Assembly (NCBI GenBank): GCA_001462245.1
Contig: LIUG01000033.1
Location: forward strand, 30,010 to 65,710
Direction: 5' to 3'
Source: Candidatus Fibrimonas termitidis
GTDB taxonomy: Bacteria; Fibrobacterota; Fibrobacteria; Fibrobacterales; Fibrobacteraceae
DNA length: 35,701 nt
In this document: positions 29,175 to 29,317 of the stretch, piece after piece
How the letters are laid out: each line of letters opens with the position of its first letter
How positions within the stretch are numbered: the first letter of the stretch is position 1
Translations under genes and position numbers: made by a program
The notes under the pieces: generated by a model
Databases searched by the model: none
The model's input: only the letters and a program-made list of their open reading frames with translations
What the model was told of the DNA's origin: nothing

Positions 29175-29203
29175 TTGCCAAAGCCTTTTTATTTTTCTAT
29201 ATT
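29175..29203 (+). promoter_or_regulatory. nif operon promoter
   Basis: TTGCCA (29175-29180), 17 bases, TATATT (29198-29203, within the common TTTTCTATATT motif). Transcription should begin near 29210, just before the structured leader. No sigma54 (-24/-12) motif is seen, so control is unlikely to follow the NifA/RpoN scheme. Confidence 0.65.
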
Positions 29204-29209
29204 TACTCT

Positions 29210-29300
29210 TGTAGCCTACGAGTGTAGGTTGCACACACAAAGGCGTGTGTTTTTCTATGGCTATCTTCGGGTAGCGGTAGAGGAACACTCGCCTTTTTTA
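29210..29300 (+). promoter_or_regulatory. Structured nifH leader with switchable terminator (attenuator or riboswitch)
   Basis: Four pairings are visible. (1) Hairpin 29213-29219/29224-29230 (core CCTAC/GTAGG, loop GAGT). (2) Hairpin ACACAC/GTGTGT, 29233-29238/29245-29250. (3) Hairpin GCTATC-TTCG-GGTAGC, 29260-29275, a UUCG tetraloop. (4) Terminator AAAGGCGTGTGT/ACACTCGCCTTT, 29239-29250/29285-29296, 11 of 12 paired and ending in a T run. CGAGTGT (29219-29225) is also fully complementary to ACACTCG (29285-29291), so pairing it together with (2) would block the terminator. This is the logic of transcription attenuation. The ligand or trans factor is unknown, and I could not match it to a known riboswitch class. 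Confidence 0.65.
29239..29300 (+). terminator. Intrinsic terminator within the nifH leader
   Basis: Arms AAAGGCGTGTGT (29239-29250) and ACACTCGCCTTT (29285-29296) with a single T-T mismatch and six consecutive T (29294-29299). The UUCG hairpin sits inside the loop. The nifH ribosome binding site GAGGAG begins only 5 bases after it. Confidence 0.6.
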
Positions 29301-29317
29301 TTTTGAGGAGAATAGAT

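Follow-up and report, generated by a model that had tools for sequence, protein, structure and literature searches.

A putative single-hexaloop ANTAR-type attenuator in the nifH leader of Candidatus Fibrimonas termitidis

The RNA targets of ANTAR proteins have been described as hexaloop hairpins with A at loop position 1 and G at position 4, the second of which overlaps a terminator (Ramesh et al., PMC3369931). Both hexaloops are required in the eut system (PMC3369931), yet one hexaloop constitutes the ANTAR binding unit (PMC8934654). ANTAR regulons were predicted in 2012 for nitrogenase and PII/ammonium-transporter genes, including nitrogenase in Pelobacter carbinolicus and several nitrogen-metabolism operons in Desulfotomaculum acetoxidans (PMC3369931). 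Control of this kind is therefore already known. The initial annotation of our locus took RNA-level termination control of nifH to be new in this phylum; for other bacteria, P. carbinolicus among them, RNA-level control of nitrogenase had been predicted before. Termination is also regulated through RNA in diazotrophic Paenibacillus, where serine biosynthesis is governed by a tRNA-sensing T-box (PMC8002221); in contrast, the leader described here has no T-box match.

This leader precedes nifH in a 35,701-nt stretch of contig LIUG01000033.1, hereafter the window. In common with the dual-hexaloop targets of eut, nas and ami (PMC3369931, PMC8934654), it places an A1/G4 hexaloop over the 5' arm of a terminator, precedes nitrogen genes and belongs to a genus with an ANTAR gene in six of twelve genomes. 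Unlike them, it has no upstream hexaloop (P1), the corresponding hairpin, H1, being of a GARU tetraloop type or missing altogether. ANTAR-type leaders before nitrogenase and nitrogen-metabolism genes likewise recall the Pelobacter and Desulfotomaculum predictions, although those were matches to a dual-hairpin model in other taxa (PMC3369931), whereas here the organisms are Fibrobacterota, the hexaloop is single and nifH leaders have been compared across phyla. The leader would work like the dual-hexaloop ANTAR family and is not filed as a full member of it.

Anatomy and folding of the nifH leader

The nifH leader is approximately 109 nt long, and the sigma70-type promoter proposed for it, with a 17-nt spacer between its two boxes, was found as described (Table 1). 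The proposed terminator also exists, together with its T run, but not in the form suggested, in which a stem of 12 bp encloses a hairpin of its own. The supposed inner hairpin is the upper part of one continuous hairpin of 25 bp with three small mismatches, with a folding energy of -37.6 kcal/mol. Its stability lies at z = -9.5 relative to shuffled sequences, none of 200 shuffles being as stable, and the fold of the entire leader lies at z = -10.1.

Table 1 Features of the nifH leader and its operon, in window coordinates
Feature	Position	Strand	Remarks
sigma70-type promoter, TTGCCA-N17-TATATT	29175..29203	+	-35 at 29175-29180, -10 at 29198-29203
H1, 9-bp hairpin at the RNA 5' end, GAGT tetraloop	29211..29232	+	arms 29211-29219/29224-29232
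H2 (P2), antiterminator hairpin ACACAC-[AAAGGC]-GTGTGT	29233..29250	+	ANTAR-type hexaloop (A1, G4)
H2 segments	ACACAC 29233-29238, loop AAAGGC 29239-29244, GTGTGT 29245-29250	+	
Intrinsic terminator hairpin	29239..29296	+	5' arm = H2 loop + H2 3' arm; from folding
Terminator T-tract, TTTTTT	29294..29299	+	
nifH Shine-Dalgarno, GAGGAG	29305..29310	+	3' of the terminator
nifH	29318..30136	+	first gene of the controlled operon; ORF, ATG at 29318
nifI1, nifI2, nifD, nifK	30147..33851	+	same operon, 3' of nifH; ORFs, named from sequence
NifD	30877-32487	+	ORF within the nifI1-I2-D-K stretch

The ACACAC/GTGTGT hairpin, H2, had rightly been described as sharing the 5' arm of the terminator, and both the overlap and the mutual exclusion of the two structures are seen in the folds. 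Indeed, the lowest terminator pair involves the base that opens the H2 loop, and the terminator 5' arm therefore coincides exactly with the loop and 3' arm of H2. Folded alone, H2 reaches -6.4 kcal/mol; being weak relative to the terminator, it excludes and is excluded by it, and the terminator prevails unless H2 is held. Forcing H2 brings the leader to -36.5 kcal/mol as against -50.4 kcal/mol for the free fold, and this cost of about 14 kcal/mol implies that termination is the default and that readthrough needs a helper.

A further pairing had been proposed between the terminator 3' arm and CGAGTGT at 29219-29225. The two are complementary in the window, but the pairing is not conserved: in most relatives only 4-6 of the seven pairs form, and in the nifN leader none does. 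By inspection only, we also rejected a leader-peptide attenuator, the frame AUG-GCU-AUC-UUC-GGG-UAG lying in the variable inner stem and being absent from the leader of a genus mate, G012.

Conservation in the genus and the nitrogen regulon

The 3.16-Mb assembly to which the window belongs (G000) contains two nif clusters. Their nifH leaders have strongly diverged in sequence with the architecture intact, and the same leader precedes nifH in all three other nifH-bearing members of the genus (G006, G010 and G012). Loop position 1 is G in the second own copy, and the G at position 4 is lost in G010. The two own clusters, on contigs C33 (the window) and C26 (L002, L045), encode NifH proteins that are 100% identical from genes that are 93% identical; the C26 cluster runs on into nifE/nifN and that of the window stops after nifK. 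Their coexistence could reflect duplication or a mixture of strains.

Comparison of leaders within the genus, much as proposed at the outset, showed that the terminator pairing is kept and that H1 carries compensatory changes. The genus has 26 distinct terminators, in which 97% of the pairs at the 13 outer positions form and the inner stems still pair despite differing in sequence and length. The 5' arm hardly varies, which leaves no means of demonstrating covariation of the outer arms (97.0% are paired as observed and 96.2% when the 3' arms are dealt anew). Four of the nine H1 pairs have changed on both sides among six leaders, with 96% of cells paired; nevertheless, H1 is missing from several G006 and G007 elements, in which 11-16 nt separate the -10 box from the hexaloop. 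Where it occurs H1 is genuine, yet it does not form the core of the element. The promoter TTG[AC]CA-N17-TATATT is common to 21 of 30 genus elements and most of the others retain CTATATT; as most elements share TTGACA-N17-TATATT, initiation looks constitutive, with control exerted at termination.

Pattern and covariance searches located the element before further genes, whose names were read from sequence rather than from family scans. It precedes glnK-amtB (own contig C47 and G003), gltB3 (own contig C73), the gltB3-glnA-ANTAR operon (G006 and G007), glutamine synthetase III (glnN), glutamate-synthase type subunits (GltB1 and Fe-S subunits), nifE (G008) and nifN (own contig C26), as well as a porin gene. 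Together, these elements constitute a nitrogen regulon. On own contig C73 (906-1650, L089), gltB3 has the nitrogen leader, but an unrelated gene stands after it in place of glnA-ANTAR; either the end of the operon with the regulator has been lost or the contig is chimeric. Near-identical copies of the hexaloop and terminator recur in G012 on contigs C6, C8, C9, C15, C56 and C80 (L075, L078, L082 and L094); the copies that were read lie upstream of predicted lipoprotein or surface-protein genes, an unexpected spread for a nitrogen-type attenuator.

NifH of what is probably the Fibrobacter group (genus g5) shows only about 72% identity, and its leaders are without the element. The g5 mRNAs (L008-L032) begin instead with a conserved CCTA...TAGG hairpin and have no terminator; this hairpin is similar to H1 and may serve to stabilise the 5' end. 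A family-wide search for the exact pattern outside the window's genus, a weak negative as its gap range was too short for most known elements, returned one match (G088), which we judged to be due to chance because it does not fold into a terminator.

The hexaloop and ANTAR genes across phyla

We scanned 80 nifH leaders of related nif operons from Firmicutes, Treponema, Chitinispirillales and others, some of them duplicate records. In 55 of them a hairpin with a hexaloop contributes its loop and 3' arm to a terminator, against 0.35 expected from shuffled leaders. The loops share the consensus R-A-N-G-R-N: among 58 distinct loops, position 1 is occupied by A in 46 and by G in 12, and 53 carry G at position 4. 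As the scan imposed no criterion on loop sequence, this consensus is an independent result. The window loop, AAAGGC, has the A1 and G4 of the ANTAR rule, and H2, like P2, shares sequence with the 5' arm of a terminator. Conversely, the window H1, with its GAGT loop, lacks the A1/G4 hexaloop required of dual-hairpin ANTAR targets, and a canonical P1, that is a second upstream hexaloop with A1 and G4, was found within 55 nt in none of 50 related nifH leaders. This points to a single-hexaloop variant, sometimes in tandem; where the hexaloop follows the -10 box as closely as in several genus elements, there is no room for P1.

Of 50 genomes of the related nif-operon set, 40 have an ANTAR domain. 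Among the 30 in which the leader was detected, 29 have ANTAR genes, as do 11 of the 20 in which it was not (p = 0.0005, the genomes not being phylogenetically independent). Within the window's family (111 genomes), they are confined to six genomes of its genus. All six have elements; of the remaining six genus members, four have neither and two (G000 and G010) have elements but no ANTAR gene. Fibrobacter genomes that are nif-positive have neither leader element nor ANTAR gene. The genus ANTAR protein aligns with structures of the EutV, AmiR, NasR and Rv1626 type and, when the alignment is read against PMC8934654, retains Met172, which is essential in EutV (PMC8934654). Its gene adjoins glnA in the genus, and the same arrangement is seen in 7 of the 12 further nif-bearing genomes that were inspected. 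Searches of G010 and of the window's own assembly, which is 93% complete, revealed no ANTAR gene; in the latter, the best match at a relaxed threshold had an E-value of 1.2. The adjoining glnA is also absent from G000, so gene loss and an assembly gap are both possible there. Conservation in relatives, the shared nitrogen regulon and the co-occurrence of ANTAR genes strongly support the proposal that H2 is the antiterminator of a switchable terminator.

Proposed mechanism and alternative explanations

The nifH leader attenuator is real and regulatory, and we are largely confident that it attenuates transcription by antitermination of the ANTAR type. RNA polymerase would start at a strong, probably constitutive promoter and, by default, the nascent RNA would fold between 29239 and 29296 and terminate at the T run before nifH. 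Under a shortage of fixed nitrogen, an ANTAR regulator acting as a dimer, and supplied in genus mates by the gltB3-glnA-ANTAR operon that itself bears the same leader, would bind the AAAGGC hexaloop and keep H2 folded. The terminator 5' arm would then be sequestered, allowing polymerase to read into nifH-I1-I2-D-K, and the same signal would co-control glnK-amtB, the GS and GOGAT genes and nifE/N. We infer protein binding, the direction of the response and its signal, the latter two from the genes controlled.

Mutually exclusive terminator and antiterminator hairpins are equally a property of riboswitches, and a nitrogen regulon would suit a nitrogen metabolite such as glutamine or 2-oxoglutarate. 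The initial annotation had envisaged a new attenuator or riboswitch, with molybdate among the further candidate ligands. However, no aptamer is conserved: what is shared at the core is a hairpin of 18 nt, not large enough to be one, and H1 is missing in several members. The Rfam search recommended there yielded nothing usable at gathering or relaxed thresholds, the best weak matches falling far below gathering (freshwater-2, 22 bits against a cut-off of 49.9). Given also that the loop rule, the overlap of hexaloop and terminator and the gene co-occurrence fit an ANTAR target, we regard a small-molecule sensor as very improbable, and the switch is most likely ANTAR-protein antitermination. That a different RNA-binding protein antiterminates through the same hairpin, possibly with another regulator in the window's genome, is somewhat easier to entertain, if still unlikely: G000 and G010 keep the leader without an ANTAR gene, yet the hexaloop rule holds and ANTAR genes co-occur across phyla, and six genus mates possess both ANTAR and matching elements.

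Least plausible, in our estimation, is that a repressor uses ACACAC-N6-GTGTGT as its DNA operator, with the terminator acting as an ordinary insulator. The palindrome does lie just 3' of the start site in all elements, but the terminator always begins at the loop and sits between promoter and gene, where an insulator would silence the operon. Moreover, A1 and G4 of the loop are conserved across phyla while the stems differ, and the consensus patterns tried for NrpR, NtcA, TnrA, NifA and sigma54 had no match between 28901 and 29318.

Beyond this locus, we think it rather probable that a broad group of anaerobic diazotrophs switches nifH by single-hexaloop ANTAR antiterminators without the supposedly obligatory P1, and that the Fibrobacterota transcript can start directly at the hairpin, giving an unusually small ANTAR attenuator whose regulon also takes in ammonium uptake, GS and GOGAT. 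Many anaerobic diazotrophs seem to regulate nifH by transcription termination, a route missing from descriptions of nif control that centre, as is usual, on NifA/sigma54 and NrpR. In gut Fibrobacterota, the regulon connects ANTAR with both glutamine synthetase and nitrogenase. Natural one-hairpin sites also make testable the puzzle that one hexaloop binds and eut nonetheless needs two (PMC8934654).

Two hexaloop-terminator units stand in tandem before nifH in G006 (L004:957-1044), Treponema (L101) and Acetobacterium (L151, L154 and L156), an arrangement that may possibly tighten repression. In the receiver domain of one ANTAR protein (L052, G003:C62), the usual phospho-acceptor Asp seems to be Asn (DLVIVNAPLPDE), such that this regulator may escape phosphorylation control; the G006 homologue retains Asp.
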